A DNA stretch of 55,317 nt. Source: an uncultured Clostridia bacterium. GTDB lineage: Bacteria > Bacillota > Clostridia > Oscillospirales > Ruminococcaceae. Below, piece by piece: positions 19,873 to 50,424 of the stretch. The first letter of the stretch is position 1. Each line of letters begins with the position of its first letter. The translations under genes and the position numbers were made by a program. The DNA lies in contig CANQFZ010000008.1 of NCBI GenBank assembly GCA_947600065.1, positions 1 to 55,317 of the forward strand. Direction: 5' to 3'. The notes beneath the pieces were generated by a model. The model saw nothing but the letters and a program-made list of their open reading frames with translations. It did not search any database and was not told the origin of the DNA.

Positions 19873-20027
19873 CAGACTGTATATAAATCCCCATCTGCGT
19901 TGTCAACGCCACAGCGTTTTGCGCGTAGCGCATAATGCGAACAGCCACAAAGGCTAGTTGCAGTGGCGTTTCAGCGTTGCACGCAAAGCGTTCAACGCGT
20001 GCATACTGGGGCTTTCTATACAGTCTG
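19873..20027. repeat. Family C MITE-like element, copy 1 (155 bp)
   Basis: Terminal inverted repeats are CAGACTGTATATAAA at the left and CTTTCTATACAGTCTG at the right, with CCCCATCTGCGTTGTCA and ACTGGGG inside them. The interior contains AGCCACAAAGGCTAGTTGCAG, which is shared with the other three copies. It carries no coding potential and could fold into one long hairpin. It sits between trkH and the thioesterase gene. Confidence 0.85.
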
Positions 20028-26442: not shown

Positions 26443-26470
26443 AAAATAGATGAAAATTTAAAAATTCCGC

Positions 26471-26499
26471 TTGACAAAAAAGAAGTGTTGTGGTAAAAT
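26471..26499 (+). promoter_or_regulatory. Promoter of the trp operon
   Basis: TTGACA (26471-26476) and TAAAAT (26494-26499) are 17 bases apart, immediately after the thi operon. Confidence 0.8.
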
Positions 26500-26650
26500 A
26501 ACTTTGTTGAATTGAATATGCCTTAAAAACCGATGAAGCAGAGATAAAGGCGCTTATGTACTCACAGAGAGCGGTCGTTGCTGAGAATACCGCAGAAAAC
26601 AGAGCGTTTGAACCCGTATTGTAATGATCTGTCTGTATATTGTCAAGCTC

Positions 26651-26800
26651 CGGACTGTAGCCCCAGATGCTCGTATTGAGCGCCTGCGGCGCACAACACT
26701 GAAGCGTTGCTGCAACTAGCCTTTGTGGCTGTTCGCATTATGCGCTACGCGCAAAACGCTGTAACGCTGACAACGCAGATGGGGCTTTATATACAGTCCG
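26651..26800. repeat. Family C MITE-like element, copy 2 (150 bp), inside the T-box
   Basis: The ends are CGGACTGTAGCCCCAG and CTTTATATACAGTCCG, with TGC and GCAGATGGGG inside. The core contains AACTAGCCTTTGTGGCTG, as in the other copies. Flanking GAACCCG (26610-26616) and CGGGTTC (26799-26805) are complementary, so the whole element can project as one extra hairpin from stem I. Confidence 0.85.
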
Positions 26801-26964
26801 GGTTCTTAAATGGACTGCCGAGGGCGCTAAAGGAAAACCGCTAACTGCAAATGTGCGGCGAGTATTTTGCGACGTGCGCGAGCGTTAATCGCAGGGGTAT
26901 GTCAGTACCCGCAGAGAGCGCGGAGTTTTCCGCGAATTAAGGTGGTATCGCGGCGATTATTTTC

Positions 26965-27013
26965 ACCGTCCTTATGACAGAGAAATACTGTCACAGGGGC
27001 GGTTTTGTTTTTT
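26965..27013 (+). terminator. T-box terminator
   Basis: ACCGTCC...GACAG pairs with CTGTC...GGGGCGGT, followed by TTTTGTTTTTTT ending about 45 bases before trpE. Confidence 0.8.
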
Positions 27014-27057
27014 TACCGCAAGAATACCGCTTCGCTTAGTTTTGAAAGGAGCATGAT

Positions 27058-28524
27058 ATGTTAGTCCCAAGCAAAGAAGAAGCAAAACAATATGCGGATT
27101 ACAGCAGGATACCTATTAAAAAAGAGATCCTCTCGGACATCAGAACACCTATAGAAGTTCTGAAAATCCTAAAGTCGGTGAGCCGCCATGTCTATATTCT
27201 CGAAAGCGTTGAAAACCAGGAGAAATGGGGACGGTATACGTTTTTGGGGTACGACCCGACGCTTGAAATTTCCTGCATAAACGGAAAGCTCACCGCCAAA
27301 AACGTGCTTTCGGGAGAAGCCGAAACGCTCGAAGTAAAAAGCCCCGCCGAGTATATAAGAAAACTTATGAGCGGGTTCAAGTCGCCTGTTATAGCGGGAT
27401 TTCCGAGCTTTACGGGAGGACTGGTGGGATATTTCAGCTATGATTATATAAAGTACAGCGAGCCGAGGCTGACGCTCGACGCGCTTGACGAGGAGCATTT
27501 CAAGGACGTTGACCTTATGCTCTTTAACAACGTTATAGCCTTCGACAATATCCGACAGAAAATAATCCTCATAACAAACATTTCGGGGAGCAATATTGAC
27601 GAGGAATATGCGCTTGCCGAAAAAGAGCTTGACAAAATGGCAAAGCTGATAACCGAGGGAAAGCCCGAGCAAGAACACGAAGCGCGCCTTATGAGCGAGT
27701 TTCACCCGCTGTTCAGCAAAGAGCAGTATTGCGCAATGGTCGAAAGGGCGAAGAAGTATATCTACGAGGGCGATATTTTCCAGGTCGTTCTTTCAAACAG
27801 GCTCGAAGCGGACTTTGAGGGAAGCCTTCTTAACACCTACAGAATGTTAAGAACTTTAAATCCCTCGCCGTATATGTTCTATTTTTCGAGCGACGATATG
27901 GAAGTTGCGGGGTCAAGTCCCGAAACGCTCGTAAAGCTCGAAAACGGCGTTCTGCATACATTCCCGCTCGCAGGAACACGCCCTCGCGGAAAGACCGACG
28001 AAGAGGACAAGGAGCTCGAACGCGGACTTTTGAAAGACGAAAAAGAGCTTTCCGAGCATAATATGCTCGTCGATCTCGGCAGGAACGATATAGGAAAAAT
28101 TTCGGAGTTCGGCTCGGTCGAAGTAGAAAAGTATATGTCCATAGAGCGCTATTCACACGTTATGCACATAGGCTCGACGGTGCGCGGACAGATAAGAAAA
28201 GAGTTCTGCGCCTTGGACGCGGTAGACGCGGTATTGCCTGCGGGAACGCTTTCGGGTGCGCCGAAGATACGCGCCTGTGAGATAATAAACGAGCTCGAAA
28301 ACAACAAGCGCGGTATCTACGGCGGCGCGATAGGCTACATTGATTTCAGAGGAAACCTCGACACCTGTATAGCTATCCGCCTTTGCTTTAAGAAAAACGG
28401 AAAGGTTTTTGTGAGAAGCGGCGCGGGAATAGTAGCGGACAGCGTCCCCGAAAACGAATTTACCGAATGTATAAACAAGGCGAAGGCAGTCGTAAAGGCT
28501 CTCGAAGCCTCACAGGAGGTATGA
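27058..28524 (+). CDS. trpE: Anthranilate synthase component I
   Basis: The protein has 488 residues and catalyses chorismate plus glutamine-derived ammonia to anthranilate, together with TrpG. The feedback-binding segment YILESVEN is present near residue 48, implying tryptophan inhibition. The chorismate-binding domain includes SPSPYMFYF-type LNPSPYMFYF, GTRPRGKT and DLGRNDIG, plus AVLPAGTLSGAPKIRA and IGYIDFRGNLDTCIAIR. The length is normal. GAAAGGAG precedes ATG 27058. The stop overlaps the trpG ribosome site. Confidence 0.97.
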   Translation: MLVPSKEEAKQYADYSRIPIKKEILSDIRTPIEVLKILKSVSRHVYILESVENQEKWGRYTFLGYDPTLEISCINGKLTAKNVLSGEAETLEVKSPAEYIRKLMSGFKSPVIAGFPSFTGGLVGYFSYDYIKYSEPRLTLDALDEEHFKDVDLMLFNNVIAFDNIRQKIILITNISGSNIDEEYALAEKELDKMAKLITEGKPEQEHEARLMSEFHPLFSKEQYCAMVERAKKYIYEGDIFQVVLSNRLEADFEGSLLNTYRMLRTLNPSPYMFYFSSDDMEVAGSSPETLVKLENGVLHTFPLAGTRPRGKTDEEDKELERGLLKDEKELSEHNMLVDLGRNDIGKISEFGSVEVEKYMSIERYSHVMHIGSTVRGQIRKEFCALDAVDAVLPAGTLSGAPKIRACEIINELENNKRGIYGGAIGYIDFRGNLDTCIAIRLCFKKNGKVFVRSGAGIVADSVPENEFTECINKAKAVVKALEASQEV

Positions 28525-28526
28525 AT

Positions 28527-29099
28527 ATGATATTGCTTATAGATAATTACGACAGCTTTTCATATAACCTTTATCAGCTTATCGGCGCAATAGATCCCGA
28601 TATAAAGGTGATAAGAAACGACGAGCTTTCTTGTGAAGAAGTCCTTGCGTTAAGTCCCTCGCATATAATAATAAGCCCTGGTCCGGGGAGACCCTCTGAT
28701 GCGGGAATTTGCGAGGAGCTTGTGATAAAAGCGGAGGGAAAAGTCCCGATACTCGGAGTATGCCTCGGTCATCAGGCGATCTGCGAGGCTTTCGGAGCAA
28801 AGATAACCTATGCGAAAAAACTTATGCACGGGAAAAAGTCAACTATCGAATACGATACTTCTTCCCCGATATTCGCGGGGATAAGCGGAGAGCTCGAAGT
28901 CGCGCGTTATCATTCTCTTGCCGCAGACGAAAGCACAATGCCCGAGGTGCTTAAGATAACGGCAAAGACGGACGACGGCGAAGTAATGGCAGTCCAGCAC
29001 AAAGAATTTCCCGTGTTCGGACTTCAGTTCCACCCCGAAAGTATACTGACAACAAAAGGAAAGGCGTTTGCCGAAAACTTTTTGAAAATAAGAACTTAA
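28527..29099 (+). CDS. trpG: Anthranilate synthase component II (glutamine amidotransferase)
   Basis: The protein has 190 residues from ATG 28527, chosen because AGGAGG lies seven bases upstream; the ATG at 28521 is too close to it. The class I amidotransferase triad is visible: the nucleophile Cys in GVCLGHQAI, His and Glu in FHPESIL, with SPGPGRPSDAG as oxyanion strand. It supplies ammonia to TrpE. It is separate from trpD, in contrast to the fused TrpGD of enterobacteria. Confidence 0.96.
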   Translation: MILLIDNYDSFSYNLYQLIGAIDPDIKVIRNDELSCEEVLALSPSHIIISPGPGRPSDAGICEELVIKAEGKVPILGVCLGHQAICEAFGAKITYAKKLMHGKKSTIEYDTSSPIFAGISGELEVARYHSLAADESTMPEVLKITAKTDDGEVMAVQHKEFPVFGLQFHPESILTTKGKAFAENFLKIRT

Positions 29100-29124
29100 T
29101 TTAAACCGAAAAGGAGAATTTATT

Positions 29125-30135
29125 ATGATCAGAGAAGCAATCATCAAAACCGCAAAGGGCGAAAACCTCACATTTGACGAAGCGTCGGAAGTAATGCGCG
29201 AAATAATGACGGGAAACACAACTCCCGCACAGACCGCCGCTTATCTCACCGCGCTTCACCTAAAGGGCGAAACGGTCGAGGAGACCTCGGCGAGCGCCTA
29301 TGTAATGCGCGACTGCGCAACGCGCGTAAGCTATAACGGCGACGTTATGGAAATAGTCGGAACGGGAGGTGACGGCGCACAGTCTATAAATATCTCGACA
29401 ATTTCGGGAATTATATGCGCGTCGGCGGGCGTTAAAATAGCAAAGCACGGAAACCGCGCGGCTTCTTCAAAATGCGGAGCGGCAGACGTTTTAGAAGCCC
29501 TCGGCATAAACATTTCGGTATCTCCCGAGGGCTGTGTAAAGCTTCTGGACGAGGTGGGAATGTGCTTTATGTTCGCGCAGAAATACCATACGGCTATGAA
29601 GTATGTCGGACCCGTACGCAAGGAAATAGGCATTCCTACCGTGTTCAACCTCCTCGGCCCGCTTACAAACCCCGCTCATGCTTCTTATCAGCTTTTGGGA
29701 GTTTATGACGAGAGCCTTTTGGAGCCTATGTCGAAAACTCTCGTAAAGCTCGGAGTAAAGCGCGGAATGGCGGTTTACGGTCAGGATAAGCTCGACGAGA
29801 TATCCGTAAGCGCTCCGACTTCCGTAATTGAATTTGAGGGCGATAAGTTTACAAAATACGAGATAACCCCCGAGCAGTTTGGTCTTTCGCGCCACGATAT
29901 GTCCGAGATCCGCGGCGGCGACCCTGCGGAAAACGCTAAAATCGCAAGGGAAATTCTCGGCGGAAAGAAGTGCGCGGGTCGCGACGCGGTTTTGCTTAAC
30001 GCAGGCTCGGCGCTCCACATCTACAAGGGCGTTTCTATCGAGGACGGCGTAAAGCAGGCGGCAGAGATGATAGACAGCGGCGCGGCAATGAAAACTCTCG
30101 AAAAGTATATCGAAGTTTCAAACAAGGTAGAATGA
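29125..30135 (+). CDS. trpD: Anthranilate phosphoribosyltransferase
   Basis: The protein has 336 residues and transfers phosphoribose from PRPP to anthranilate. The PRPP-binding signature GTGGDGAQSINIST is near residue 78. KHGNRAASSKCGAADVLEALG and GPLTNPAHASYQLLGVY are further family motifs. AAAGGAG precedes ATG 29125. The length is normal. The stop codon overlaps the possible first ATG of trpC. Confidence 0.96.
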   Translation: MIREAIIKTAKGENLTFDEASEVMREIMTGNTTPAQTAAYLTALHLKGETVEETSASAYVMRDCATRVSYNGDVMEIVGTGGDGAQSINISTISGIICASAGVKIAKHGNRAASSKCGAADVLEALGINISVSPEGCVKLLDEVGMCFMFAQKYHTAMKYVGPVRKEIGIPTVFNLLGPLTNPAHASYQLLGVYDESLLEPMSKTLVKLGVKRGMAVYGQDKLDEISVSAPTSVIEFEGDKFTKYEITPEQFGLSRHDMSEIRGGDPAENAKIAREILGGKKCAGRDAVLLNAGSALHIYKGVSIEDGVKQAAEMIDSGAAMKTLEKYIEVSNKVE

Positions 30136-30140
30136 CATCT

Positions 30141-30926
30141 ATGAACATTCTCGATGAAATAGCGGAAAAGACCCGCGAAAGAATTGCCGAAAAGATGCGG
30201 GAAATACCGCTTTCGGAGATACGCGAAAAAGCCGAAGCGCTCCCCGTCTACAATGGCTTTCCGTTTTATAAAGCGCTTTGCGGCGATGACATCTCTTTTA
30301 TCTGCGAGGTAAAGAAAGCTTCTCCGTCAAAGGGCGTTATTGCAGAGGATTTTCCTTATCTGCAAATTGCAAAGGATTATGAAAAAGCGGGCGCGGCGGC
30401 AATTTCCTGCCTTACCGAACCTTTCTGGTTCAAGGGCAGTGATGAAATACTGAAAGAAATAACAAGCGCGGTAAATATCCCCGTTCTGCGAAAGGATTTT
30501 ACAATAAGCGAGTATATGATATACGAAGCGAAAATTCTCGGAGCGGGCGCGGTCTTGCTTATATGTTCAATTCTTAGCGAACAGCAATTGAAAGAATATT
30601 TAAAGCTTGCTCATTCTCTGGGATTGTCGGCGCTTGTCGAAACTCATAACGAAGAAGAAATAAAATGCGCCGTAAATATCGGAGCGAAGATAATCGGCGT
30701 AAATAACCGCGACCTCAGGTCATTTACGGTAGACGTGGGAAATTCCGCTCGGTTGCGCGAGCTTATTCCCCGCGACAGGGTCTTTGTTTCGGAAAGCGGG
30801 ATAGCGACTGCGGCTGACGTTGAAAAACTTCGTGATATCGGAGCAAACGCGGCTCTCGTCGGAGAGGCTCTTATGAGAGCAGAGGACAAGACGGCAAAGC
30901 TTAGAGAATTGCGCGGAGAAAAGTGA
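30141..30926 (+). CDS. trpC: Indole-3-glycerol phosphate synthase
   Basis: The protein has 261 residues from ATG 30141, with AAGGTAGA nine bases upstream; ATG 30132 (overlapping the trpD stop) is an alternative giving 264. It is a TIM barrel with EVKKASPSKGVI, RKDFTISEYMIYEA, GVNNRDLRSFTVD and VSESGIATAADVEKL motifs, all typical of TrpC. It closes the indole ring. TrpC and TrpF are separate genes, spaced by one base. Confidence 0.96.
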   Translation: MNILDEIAEKTRERIAEKMREIPLSEIREKAEALPVYNGFPFYKALCGDDISFICEVKKASPSKGVIAEDFPYLQIAKDYEKAGAAAISCLTEPFWFKGSDEILKEITSAVNIPVLRKDFTISEYMIYEAKILGAGAVLLICSILSEQQLKEYLKLAHSLGLSALVETHNEEEIKCAVNIGAKIIGVNNRDLRSFTVDVGNSARLRELIPRDRVFVSESGIATAADVEKLRDIGANAALVGEALMRAEDKTAKLRELRGEK

Positions 30927-30927
30927 A

Positions 30928-31554
30928 ATGGCGGTCAGAATAAAATTATGCGGAATGTTCCGCGAAGAAGATATTGAATACGCAAACGAGGCAATGCCCG
31001 ACTATATCGGTTTTATAGTTATGTTTCCGAAAAGCCATAGGAACATTGACATTGATACTGCCGAAAAGCTGAAGTCGCGGCTTTCTCCGAAGATAAAGTC
31101 GGTCGCCGTTTCGGTAAATGCCGACATAAATAAGTTTGCGGAATTTGCAAAGCGCGGAATAGCGGATATGCTCCAGTGTCACGGAGATGAAAGCGCGGAA
31201 TATATCAAAAGATTAAAAGAGCTTACGGGCGTTCCGATAATCAAAGCCGTAAGGGTAGAAAGCGCGGACGACATAAAAAGGGCGGACGATATGGGAGCTG
31301 ATTTTCTCCTGCTCGACAGCGGCACGGGCAGCGGGATAAGCTTCGATCATTCGCTCATTGACCCCGAAAAGATCAAAACGCCGTTTTTTCTTGCGGGCGG
31401 GCTTACTCCCGATAATTTAGCCGAAGCCGCCGCGAAATTAAAGCCGTTCGCGGTAGACCTCAGCAGCGGCACTGAGACCGACAAAATAAAAGACCGCGAA
31501 AAAATGATAGCTGCCGTAAAGGCGATTAGAAATCAATCACAATACAGACTGTAG
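30928..31554 (+). CDS. trpF: Phosphoribosylanthranilate isomerase
   Basis: The protein has 208 residues. KLCGMFREEDIEYA carries the catalytic cysteine, DYIGFIVMFPKSHRNI follows, and LLLDSGTGSGISFDHS and FLAGGLTPDNLAEA complete the TIM barrel. The last codons (ACAGACTGTAG) and the stop codon lie within the left terminus of a family C element. The insertion has therefore rewritten the C-terminus; the essential barrel is intact. Confidence 0.95.
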   Translation: MAVRIKLCGMFREEDIEYANEAMPDYIGFIVMFPKSHRNIDIDTAEKLKSRLSPKIKSVAVSVNADINKFAEFAKRGIADMLQCHGDESAEYIKRLKELTGVPIIKAVRVESADDIKRADDMGADFLLLDSGTGSGISFDHSLIDPEKIKTPFFLAGGLTPDNLAEAAAKLKPFAVDLSSGTETDKIKDREKMIAAVKAIRNQSQYRL

Positions 31555-31649
31555 AGAAAGCCCCAGATGCTAGGAAGCGCTGTTGCAACTAGCCTTTGTG
31601 GCTGTTGCAGCAGCGCTGACAACGCAGATGGGGCTTTATATACAGTCTG
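31545..31649. repeat. Family C MITE-like element, copy 3 (105 bp)
   Basis: Inverted termini CAGACTGTAGAGAAAG and CTTTATATACAGTCTG flank GCCCCAGATGC and GCAGATGGGG. The interior AGCGCTGTTGCAAC and GTTGCAGCAGCGCT also pairs. The element overlaps the trpF stop codon and precedes trpB. Confidence 0.88.
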
Positions 31650-31682
31650 TTTAATACGAAATGAAAGGAAGCTAAGTTACTT

Positions 31683-32867
31683 ATGTCAAATGGACGTTAC
31701 GGCGATTTCGGAGGACAGTATATCCCCGAAACGCTGATGAACGAAATTCACAAGCTGGAAGAGGCTTATGAACATTACAAGAACGACCCCGAATTTGTCG
31801 CGGAGCTTGACAGGCTGAACCGCGAATATGCGGGCAGACCGTCCCTGCTCTATTATGCGGAGAAGATGACGCGCGACCTTGGCGGCGCAAAGATCTATTT
31901 CAAGCGCGAAGACTTAAACCACACGGGTTCTCACAAAATAAACAATGTTTTGGGGCAGTGCCTGCTTGCCAAAAAAATGGGCAAAACGCGCATAATTGCC
32001 GAAACGGGCGCAGGACAGCATGGAGTTGCCGCGGCAACGGCGGCGGCGCTTATGGACCTTGAATGTGAAATTTTTATGGGAAAAGAAGATACCGTAAGAC
32101 AGGCGCTCAATGTCTACAGAATGGAGCTTTTGGGCGCAAAGGTACACCCCGTAACGTCTGGCACGATGACCCTCAAAGACGCTGTAAACGAGGCTATGCG
32201 CGACTGGACGAACAGAGTTGACGACACGCTTTATGTTTTAGGCTCGGTTATGGGTCCTCACCCGTTCCCGATGATAGTGCGCGATTTTCAGAGCGTTATC
32301 TCTAAAGAAGCCAGAGAGCAGATACTTGAAAAAGAAGGCAAGCTCCCTACCGCCGTTATGGCTTGCGTAGGCGGCGGCTCAAACGCTATGGGAATGTTCT
32401 ATAACTTCATAAACGACAAGGAAGTTCGCCTTATCGGCTGTGAAGCGGCGGGGCGCGGCGTTGATACGGGAGAGACCGCGGCAACAATTGCAACGGGAAC
32501 GCTCGGAATTTTCCACGGAATGAAGAGCCTTTTCTGCCAGAACGAATACGGGCAGATCGCGCCTGTTTATTCAATATCTGCGGGACTTGACTATCCCGGG
32601 ATAGGTCCCGAACACGCTTATCTTCACTCAATAGGCAGAGCGGAGTATGTTCCCGTTACAGATGACGAAGCAGTAAACGCGTTTGAGTATATCGCGCGTA
32701 CAGAGGGCATTATATGCGCAATAGAAAGCGCTCATGCTGTCGCTCATCTTATGAAGATAGCGCCGACCATGAAAAAGGACGACATCATTATTTGCTGTCT
32801 TTCGGGTCGCGGAGATAAAGATGTCGCGGCAATTGCCCGCTATCGCGGAATTGATCTGCACGAATAA
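31683..32867 (+). CDS. trpB: Tryptophan synthase beta chain
   Basis: The protein has 394 residues, normal for TrpB. It condenses indole and serine with pyridoxal phosphate bound at the lysine of [31 protein letters not shown] and [13 protein letters not shown] (phosphate loop) are unambiguous. It starts about 130 bases after trpF, the only sizeable gap in the operon, occupied by the family C element. GAAAGGAAG precedes the start. Twelve bases separate it from trpA. Confidence 0.98.
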
Positions 32868-32879
32868 GGAGAACAAAAG

Positions 32880-33647
32880 ATGAACAGAATTGAAAACGCA
32901 TTCAAAAACAAAAAAGCCTTTATAGGCTTTCTGACGGCGGGCGACCCGAGCTATGAGGCTTCTTATGAAAATATAATGGCGCTTATAAAGGCGGGCGCGG
33001 ATATGGTAGAAATAGGTATTCCGTTTTCCGACCCTATCGCCGAAGGTCCCGTAATTCAAGGCGCTGACGTAAGGGCATTAAAGGCGGGAATGACAACGGA
33101 CAAAGCCTTTGAGCTTGCCGCAAAAGTTCGCTCTCAGACGGACATTCCGCTTGTGTTTATGACATATGTAAATCCCGTTTATAAATACGGCTACGACAGG
33201 TTTTTCGCAAAATGCGCAGAGATAGGCGTAGACGGTCTTATCTGCCCCGATTTGCCGTTTGAGGAAAAGAACGAAGCAGACGGCGCGGCAAAGGCTCACG
33301 GCGTTGCGCTTATTTCAATGATAGCTCCCACCAGCGAACAGCGCATAAAGTCCATAGCTGAAAGCGCAAACGGATTTTTGTACATAGTAAGCTCTATGGG
33401 CGTTACGGGCGTAAGGAGCGAGATAAAGACCGACCTCAAGTCAATTATGGCGAGCGTTCGGAAATACGCCAAAGTTCCCGCGGCAATAGGCTTCGGAATT
33501 TCAAATCCCGAACAGGCGAAAAAAATGTCTGAGCTTTCGGACGGCGTAATCGTCGGCTCGGCAATAGTAAGGCTGGTAGAAAAATACGGCGAGGCTGCGC
33601 CCGATGAAATCTATAAGCTTGTAAAATCACTAAAGGATGTTATTTGA
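32880..33647 (+). CDS. trpA: Tryptophan synthase alpha chain
   Basis: The protein has 255 residues, a TIM barrel that cleaves indole glycerol phosphate and feeds indole through a tunnel to TrpB. The catalytic Glu is in MVEIGIPFSDPIAEGPVIQ, the catalytic Asp in LICPDLPFEEK, and YIVSSMGVTGVR and AIGFGISNPEQA are phosphate-binding parts. It is last in the trp operon, with AAGGAG upstream, and is followed by hairpin-rich family A repeats. Confidence 0.98.
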   Translation: MNRIENAFKNKKAFIGFLTAGDPSYEASYENIMALIKAGADMVEIGIPFSDPIAEGPVIQGADVRALKAGMTTDKAFELAAKVRSQTDIPLVFMTYVNPVYKYGYDRFFAKCAEIGVDGLICPDLPFEEKNEADGAAKAHGVALISMIAPTSEQRIKSIAESANGFLYIVSSMGVTGVRSEIKTDLKSIMASVRKYAKVPAAIGFGISNPEQAKKMSELSDGVIVGSAIVRLVEKYGEAAPDEIYKLVKSLKDVI

Positions 33648-49004: not shown

Positions 49005-50333
49005 ATGAAAACAAAAACAACAATTTTAGCGGTATTAGCTTGCGCAGTGCTTATGTCTGGGTGCGACCAATCTACGCCGATAGGCGAACTTAAAAACATA
49101 TCTCTGGAAGAAATGGGCGGAAAGGAAATCGAAATATCAAGCGCTTCTAAAGACGAGATAAAAAGCGCAATAGACGCATGCGATAATTTCAAGGCTTCGG
49201 AAGACTTTTATTTAAACGTCCCCGAAAAAGCAAAGGTCTATGAATTCAGGTCGTTTTCCGACAACGATTATGTCGGACGAGAATATACGCCGCAAATGGC
49301 TATAGAAGATTTCAGAAAGGCATACTCCTATTTCTTCCCCGACAGCGAACTTAACGAGGACTATTTTTCCTATACATGGACAGAGCCCTTGGAAAACCTG
49401 AACAGTTATAAAGACCTTCCCGAAAACCCCGAAGTAGAAAGCGGACTTGTAAAAGACTTTGAGCAGACGGAAGGGATCATCAGTTTGAGATACAGCGAGG
49501 GCGATGACGAGGAGATCCCCGTCAATATGTCCTCTACGCCGAATATTTCGAGCTTTAGCGTATGCCACGGAAAAATCTTTGAATATGCATATGAAAACAA
49601 GCTGGTTTATGAGCGTATGTCGACTGCCGCTTCTTTAGACCAATATTTCAGCGTAGAAGGCACTTACAGCCCCACAAGCGAAAAATCCTTCAAGCTGCTT
49701 GACAAGGAAACAAGGATTTGCGACGCAGTGCGTTTCTTTGAAGAATATATCAACAACGCGCCTATAGGAAAAAGCGTAGAGAAAAATATGACCACAAAGG
49801 TTTACTCCGTAAAGGTTTTGGAGATAGGCGATATATACGGATTTTATTTCGATCTGCAAAAGCAACTGACAGACGTCAATTTCGAGCATTGTCCTATAGG
49901 AAATACGGTTTCCGAGAACAATATGAAAAATCACTATCTCGGCGAGGGCGCAACCGCGCTGATGATAGAAAGCGACAATGTAGACATGTTTTCGTCAATG
50001 CCGTTACATATGGGAATTTCAGATGTAAAAAGCGTTGAAAAAGTTATCTCGGCAGACGAGGCTGTAAAAAAGTTCTCCGAAGGCTTAACAAAGGAAGTCG
50101 AGTTTGTAATAAATGATTTAGAGTTTGTTTACTATTCGTCTTATGTTCCGATAGAGCTCGGCAGCTTAAATCCGCTGACGCACGAAGCCAAGGTCGTTCC
50201 CGTCTGGAAGCTCACCGCTTATAACCCGAACGACCATCTGACATATTTCGTCTATATCGACGCCAAAGACGGCGGGAATATAAGACAATATGCCGTTTCA
50301 AATAACGTTGGAGTTATTACAGACTGTAGATAA
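49005..50333 (+). CDS. Lipoprotein of unknown family, paralog 2
   Basis: The protein has 442 residues with lipobox VLMSGC after MKTKTTILAVLACA. Matching segments with paralog 1 are YSYFFPDSELNE, ICDAVRFFEEYI, ADEAVKKFSEGL and VPVWKLTAYNPNDHLTYFVY. The last codons and the stop codon lie in the left end of a family C element (position 50320), which has rewritten the C-terminus (GVITDCR). Both paralogs should be displayed on the outer face of the membrane beside the ABC transporter coded next. Confidence 0.8.
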   Translation: MKTKTTILAVLACAVLMSGCDQSTPIGELKNISLEEMGGKEIEISSASKDEIKSAIDACDNFKASEDFYLNVPEKAKVYEFRSFSDNDYVGREYTPQMAIEDFRKAYSYFFPDSELNEDYFSYTWTEPLENLNSYKDLPENPEVESGLVKDFEQTEGIISLRYSEGDDEEIPVNMSSTPNISSFSVCHGKIFEYAYENKLVYERMSTAASLDQYFSVEGTYSPTSEKSFKLLDKETRICDAVRFFEEYINNAPIGKSVEKNMTTKVYSVKVLEIGDIYGFYFDLQKQLTDVNFEHCPIGNTVSENNMKNHYLGEGATALMIESDNVDMFSSMPLHMGISDVKSVEKVISADEAVKKFSEGLTKEVEFVINDLEFVYYSSYVPIELGSLNPLTHEAKVVPVWKLTAYNPNDHLTYFVYIDAKDGGNIRQYAVSNNVGVITDCR

Positions 50334-50424
50334 AGCCCCATCTGCGTTGTCAGCGTCACTGCAACAGCCACAAAGGCTAGTTGCAGTAACGCTTCCTAGC
50401 ATCTGGGACTTTCTCTACAGTCTG
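50320..50424. repeat. Family C MITE-like element, copy 4 (105 bp)
   Basis: Inverted termini CAGACTGTAGATAAAG and CTTTCTCTACAGTCTG surround CCCCATCTGCGTTGTCAGCG and GCATCTGGG. It is close to copy 3, with the central hairpin CAACAGCCACAAAGGCTAGTTG. It contains the stop codon of the lipoprotein paralog 2. Confidence 0.88.

Follow-up and report, generated by a model that had tools for sequence, protein, structure and literature searches.

A probable extra junction arm containing a MITE-like palindrome in the trp T-box riboswitch of an uncultured Clostridia bacterium

Introduction

Mobile DNA has been described previously beside tryptophan-sensing T-boxes. In Streptococcus pneumoniae, a MITE-like BOX element lies between two trp T-boxes and is cotranscribed, and the leader is apparently still regulatory; both T-boxes are complete, and each part is presumed to fold on its own (PMC3049150). 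This is the closest precedent found for the arrangement reported here. In a review of T-boxes, the section on insertions states that they occur in every domain, with structure and function unknown, and that their origin and role are open (PMC7583486). Mobile DNA also feeds into 5' regulatory RNA through the mobile attenuators, in which insertion-sequence terminators have been exapted upstream of genes, as summarized in PMC2965389. Finally, bacterial MITEs, as characterized in the relevant parts of PMC10969869, are short, multi-copy elements with terminal inverted repeats and strong RNA hairpins, features shared by the element described below; flanking duplications occur at part of their copies.

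The locus lies in a 55,317-nt stretch of DNA (the window) from an uncultured Clostridia bacterium, on contig C8 of genome G000 (2.22 Mb in 80 contigs). By trpE, its nearest named relatives belong to assemblies of uncultured Clostridia/Oscillospiraceae, and the isolate names of several start with Lapin. The window probably encodes a trp T-box with an extra three-way-junction arm, inside which a palindrome of a MITE-like family (family 1) sits in the lineage of G000 and its relative G002, and in which tRNA reading and switching could persist. Features are on the plus strand unless stated otherwise.

Anatomy of the trp Leader

The trp-type T-box model RF00230 matches the leader at 26524-26976 (cmscan, 52.2 bits, E=1.5e-10). 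Model positions 1-219 of 219 are aligned, with 210 nt left unaligned in stem I, and this match over the whole model bears out the original prediction that an element lies inside a trp T-box. Because 52.2 bits falls under the curators' gathering score of 93 bits, a default scan gives no T-box entry at this leader. No second T-box (tandem or T-box/BOX composite) was found, there being a single RF00230 match in 26450-27060 and a single one here in the genome scan. Upstream, a promoter-like TTGACA-17-TAAAAT occupies 26471-26499 (11/12 matches, by consensus scan only).

The basal helix of stem I is formed by GCAG (26538-26541) and CTGC (26815-26818). Its 5' strand is followed by the 5' strand of the specifier loop, AGATAAA (26542-26548; placed by sequence and comparison with relatives), and then by the upper helix, in which GGCGCT (26549-26554) pairs with AGCGTT (26603-26608). 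The apical hairpin lies between the strands of the upper helix and ahead of the insert in reading order. The extra arm extends over 26610-26805, as delimited by homologous arms in relatives, covariation, and folds, and the same kinds of evidence place its basal helix, GAACCCG (26610-26616) with CGGGTTC (26799-26805). Next, as read from the sequence, comes the 3' strand of the specifier loop, TTAAATGGA (26806-26814), with the UGG codon for tryptophan (DNA TGG) at 26811-26813, a specifier that fits the trp operon downstream. The insert thus starts directly 3' of the upper helix and ends directly 5' of the loop's 3' strand, and this position therefore makes a three-way junction with all of the named parts of stem I kept in place. 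An insertion within the stem I region ahead of UGG had been foreseen; its exact point is the boundary between the upper helix and the specifier loop's 3' strand.

Further downstream are the T-box motif of the antiterminator, GGTGGTATCGCG (26941-26952; cmscan and sequence), and a terminator hairpin with a T run (26964-27014), the fold of which includes a terminator-like stem at 26987-27003 with a T tail. The genes trpE, trpG, trpD, trpC, trpF, trpB, and trpA follow at 27058-33647, assigned from open reading frames and NCBIfam models; six of the seven proteins reach or exceed the curated NCBIfam cut-off, and the TrpF match is below it. The retained specifier and intact trp operon were likewise part of the prediction, and both are found. 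On its model match, fitting specifier, T-box motif, and terminator, the leader is classed as a T-box riboswitch.

Mechanistically, the insert would fold on itself in the RNA without displacing the apical loop, the basal stem, or the loop strand UUAAAUGGA. Such a structure could still recognize tRNA-Trp and could still switch between antiterminator and terminator. We infer that the RNA adopts this fold in the cell and that its control of the operon persists.

The Family-1 Element

An element with inverted ends had been predicted at 26651-26800, and the inner ends of the T-box copy, CGGACTGTA at 26651-26659 and TATACAGTCCG at 26790-26800, give exactly this interval. It is bounded, however, by the inner terminal inverted repeats, and the probable full extent of the element is 26629-26800, with an outer left end, CTGTCTGTATA from 26629, that was placed by eye; at 6 mismatches, this end is too diverged for the end-finding script. 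The element is multi-copy, with 44 matches to 26600-26820 in its own genome, and the family's terminal inverted repeats are CAGACTGTA..AGAAAG (left end) and GGGGCTTTATATACAGTCTG (right end). Patterns for these ends, at ≤1 mismatch, gave 130 matches on the left and 81 on the right (reversed controls, 0). Among the best 30 of the 44 copies, length ranges from 105 to 205 bp and the second, outer left end is present in 24; 7-bp exact flanking duplications were found at 5 of the 24, where shuffling gave a mean of 0.15. No target duplication was seen at the T-box copy, by script or by eye, and in this respect it differs from bacterial MITEs as they are characterized in PMC10969869. Across the genus, a family-1 match is present in 26 of 43 genomes.

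An empty site is seen between trpF and trpB, where a family-1 copy occupies 31545-31649 and the same orthologous site is empty in G002, G006, and G009. By its copy number, its terminal inverted repeats, and the empty orthologous site at this one copy, family 1 is a MITE-like palindrome of mobile type.

Several side observations concern the same family. The left repeat of the 31545-31649 copy supplies the TAG stop codon of TrpF (31552-31554), the protein ending in ...RNQSQYRL. Two more family-1 copies lie in the window, both on the minus strand (19873-20027 and 50320-50424). Additionally, an antisense promoter-like TTGACA-17-TACAAT at 26618-26646 (minus strand; 11/12, a consensus match only) is made largely by the outer left end of the element in the T-box and is directed back across the T-box's 5' half.

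Arms at the Same Junction in Relatives

The prediction held that relatives would differ at this site, and they do. G012, of the same clade, and many other leaders have no arm at the junction and read GCATCAAATGG. G006, G009, G022, and G056 have hairpins of 23-64 nt there, without a family-1 element, which open with TGARY and close with RYTCT ahead of TAAATGG or TAAGTGG. The junction of G002 has an arm containing the same family-1 element as the window.

An assembler that spliced a repeat into the leader, or a binning error, could in principle mimic such an insertion, since these are multi-contig assemblies in which repeats break contigs, and the leader of a further relative, G053, is itself split inside an element remnant. 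This explanation is, nonetheless, highly improbable: G000 and G002 are separate assemblies in which both junctions recur on contigs of 55 and 79 kb, and their inserts are identical at 180 of 194 aligned bases with 14 differences, which argues against a chimera.

The arm of G053, TGAACTTGC..GCGGGTTCT, is seen at a contig end. In its leader, 3' of the specifier, lies a family-1 right end of 35 nt that matches copy L022 at 88.6% (E=1.9e-8), with a left end recognized by eye only; this remnant lies in the stem II region, and it contains the contig split. The two contigs concerned (the end of L242 and the start of L186) overlap with small differences. Another T-box of G053 (L259, G053:C95:3793-4129) spans 337 nt and has extra sequence 3' of the specifier region relative to its counterparts in G000, G002, G006, and G009.

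The RF00230 score drops as the insert gets larger, from 86.4 bits in armless G012, to 61.4-66.6 bits with arms of 23-65 nt, to 52.2 and 46.8 bits with the element. The trp T-boxes of the 12 genomes compared score 46.8-91.1 bits, all below 93, and would therefore be missed by default annotation.

A Survey of 115 trp Leaders

Two half-leader profiles were trained on 36 armless leaders. One or other half-profile was matched by 176 loci and both by 157, with 19 dropped, including L067 and L186; loci L243-L246, though retrieved, were left out of the analysis; the 157 two-half loci represent 116 distinct segments, or 115 after merging, with G053 outside the count. A junction arm of 23-203 nt was found in 8 of the 115 distinct leaders (G000, G002, G006, G009, G022, G056, G048, and L109), the last two outside the window's clade, and no junction arm was found in the other 107. 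There is no excess in 105 leaders, and 2 have an excess of 85-93 nt after the specifier. The latter are L197 and L102, and the terminal-repeat scan gave no match in either. The UGG specifier is present in all eight armed leaders.

An insertion of this kind had been called rare. That description suits the family-1 element, found at the junction in 2 of the 115 leaders, better than junction arms as such, at 8 of 115. The suggestion of an adaptation in stem I length did not hold up: the aligned 5' half of stem I, apical loop included, changes by a net -2 to +3 nt in 114 leaders (+16 in L049), and the insert is a side arm. Elongation of stem I was likewise ruled out as a candidate explanation by this near-constant length and by the position of the insert at the junction. 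The region after the specifier varies by -19 to +70 nt, and within the 5' domain the junction is the one place of freely varying length. Given arms in 8 of 115 leaders, and an arm in G048 that comes from a second mobile family (see below), the junction can be read as one that accepts hairpins, with mobile palindromes as one source.

The arms also share a paired base. In the seven species compared, pairs 1-5 of the arm are standard throughout, with an A-U to G-C swap at position 3 and four pair types at position 5. At the three varying positions (3-5), the species' own strands pair in 21 of 21 cases, against 91 of 126 for cross-species pairings. GAACCCG and CGGGTTC had been proposed to pair as an extra hairpin, and they do pair and covary, but the arm of which they are part also exists in relatives where it lacks the element. 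A mere chance match between the insert flanks was considered and rejected as the main reading on these same grounds, i.e., homologous pairing arms in relatives and covarying pairs. The prediction had also named an ancestral extension without mobile signature as the outcome that would contradict it; the comparison agrees with this in the older arm of the relatives, whereas the element inside the arm has mobile signatures.

A base that is conserved and covaries across seven species, below a length that is free from 23 to about 200 nt, is what would be expected if the arm were a functional domain kept for its own sake, for example for tRNA contact or for fixing the junction, with the element as a tolerated passenger. 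This possibility is doubtful, as most leaders, same-clade G012 among them, do without any excess, no conserved arm sequence was found beyond the first pairs, and any self-folding arm that is simply harmless would be expected to pair at its base as well. An arm that is tolerated in a switch that still works is the most likely state, because no armed leader has a damaged sensor part, UGG is kept in all eight, and within the 5' domain the site alone varies freely in length.

A Second Mobile Family in G048

The arm of G048, GGCAACACCACACAAAG..CTTTGCGTGGTGTTGCC, is recognizable as a short copy of a second palindromic family that is unrelated to family 1. This family (TIR GGCAACACCGCACAAAG) is multi-copy, has inverted ends, favours TTAA, and occurs in G022, G048, and G056. 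Its ends are GGCAACACCRCRCAAAG-like, and the search pattern GGCAACACCACRCAAAG, at ≤2 mismatches, gave 17 end matches in G048, 29 in G022, 5 in G056, and 0 in G000 (controls, 0). Twelve stretches were read, and these have paired inward ends and span 46-220 bp. TTAA flanks the 11 non-T-box copies on the left in 8 cases, on the right in 6, and on both sides in 5, against a background of 11 in 1977 positions. The T-box copy in G048 is flanked by ATTA/TTGA rather than TTAA, which may be a decayed TTAA duplication around the arm. Among the genomes compared, the nearest to G048 by trpE is L195 (80.1%), whose site reads GAGCATTAAATGG, and that of G048 reads GAGCATTA-element-TTGAAATGG.

If the G048 arm is plainly a mobile palindrome, then all of the arms, including the hairpins of G006, G009, G022, G056, and G053, might be worn-down mobile palindromes, with never a non-mobile arm among them. 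The right flank of the clade's arms is indeed TTAA, the flank favoured by the second family. TTAA is, however, also plain normal specifier loop, standing before the specifier in 36 of the 115 leaders (TCAA in 54), and the short arms were found to have no long sequence in common with either mobile family. Further, a search for TTAAGARC..GYTCTTAA palindromes in eight clade genomes gave one (in G022), with reversed-control matches in G006, G009, G053, and G056, such that a TTAA-flanked palindrome family as the origin of the clade's own arms was left without support. A mobile origin for every arm is therefore unlikely.

A related and tentative proposal, which we hold to be possible but would not expect to be correct, is that mobile palindromes have landed repeatedly at the specifier-loop junction of trp T-boxes, where they fold as arms that leave the sensor intact and become new T-box domains. 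It is suggested by the conserved strand UUAAAUGG, which contains TTAA, a sequence that at least one MITE family prefers as its target. Should it be true, part of the unexplained lineage-specific insertions in T-boxes would be explained.

Folding of Armed Leaders

All nine arms fold better than single-base shuffles (z -3.2 to -7.7). Left unconstrained, stem I has the three-way junction as its minimum-energy fold in four of eight armed leaders (G009, G022, G056, and L109). With the basal stem enforced and the specifier free, G006 attains the same fold for 1.2 kcal/mol over its minimum, and G048 for 0.7 kcal/mol. In G000, the unconstrained minimum is another fold, and enforcing the basal and upper helices costs 4.4 kcal/mol; the GAACCCG/CGGGTTC arm then forms unasked, with a pair probability of 0.43-0.51. 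In G002, adopting the T-box stem I takes 1.2 kcal/mol, and the outer arm has a probability of 0.02-0.03 because its 3' strand prefers pairing inside the element, which in this model would form its own fold at the junction with the outer arm unpaired. The predicted closing of the flanks over the element thus has a probability of about 0.5 in G000 and about 0.03 in G002, and the G002 fold is the main result against its being general. Taken by itself, G002 gave a weak result in the shuffle test (basal run of 5, P=0.054).

These energies also bear on whether the insert broke the switch, leaving a decaying T-box and a trp operon constitutively on or off. The unconstrained fold of the whole window leader differs from the T-box fold, the T-box fold of G000 has the cost given above, and the element-bearing leaders have the lowest T-box scores. 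The folding cost and the low model scores lend this alternative some weight. Against it, both element-bearing species retain an intact specifier, apical hairpin, T-box motif, and terminator, G000 and G002 have diverged since, with an A-U to G-C swap at the base of the arm, and the downstream leader is nearly unchanged relative to sister species. A broken switch is accordingly quite unlikely, and a working switch with a tolerated arm stays the preferred reading.

History of the Arm and the Element

We infer that the arm is older than the element. Trees of trpE and of about 4.5 kb did not resolve the four sister species, and the alleles conflict: the arm groups G000 with G002 and G006 with G009, whereas stem II (window 26820-26860; L037-L039) groups G000 with G006 and G002 with G009. 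This conflict suggests recombination within the leader. The pattern is compatible with such recombination and also with an element that G006 and G009 once had and then lost. A simple order of gain then loss on the tree was tried and set aside, because the sister species lack resolution and the arm and stem II alleles conflict.

Comparison with Known Systems

Junction arms bear on the question of how tRNA sensors gain domains, and the leaders described here form a natural series, from no arm (G012), to a short arm (G006 and G009), to an arm with the element (G000 and G002), to an arm from another element (G048). The case also shows why the trp T-boxes of such species score under annotation thresholds, and a position beside the codon-reading loop where large hairpins seem to be tolerated would be useful for T-box engineering.

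Relative to T-boxes of the trp type (RF00230), the window leader is alike in its stem I with a UGG specifier, apical hairpin, T-box motif, terminator, and downstream trp operon, and it differs in its junction arm of about 196 nt, the RF00230 consensus being without an arm there. A search of the open-access literature turned up no earlier description of mobile DNA within the stem of a T-box; insertions in T-boxes and a BOX between trp T-boxes are what appears to be known. Like the mobile attenuators, as these are summarized in PMC2965389, the window leader has mobile DNA feeding into a 5' regulatory RNA, but what its element contributes is an arm, and no terminator, on a tRNA sensor that was already there. 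Like the pneumococcal BOX leader of PMC3049150, in the section concerned, it combines a MITE-like repeat with a T-box-controlled trp leader; unlike BOX, the element lies inside stem I of a single T-box, three bases before the UGG context of the specifier loop. Finally, whereas the insertions in T-box domains are of unknown origin in the review section that describes them (PMC7583486), the insertion in the window can be traced to mobile elements, at a site that recurs.
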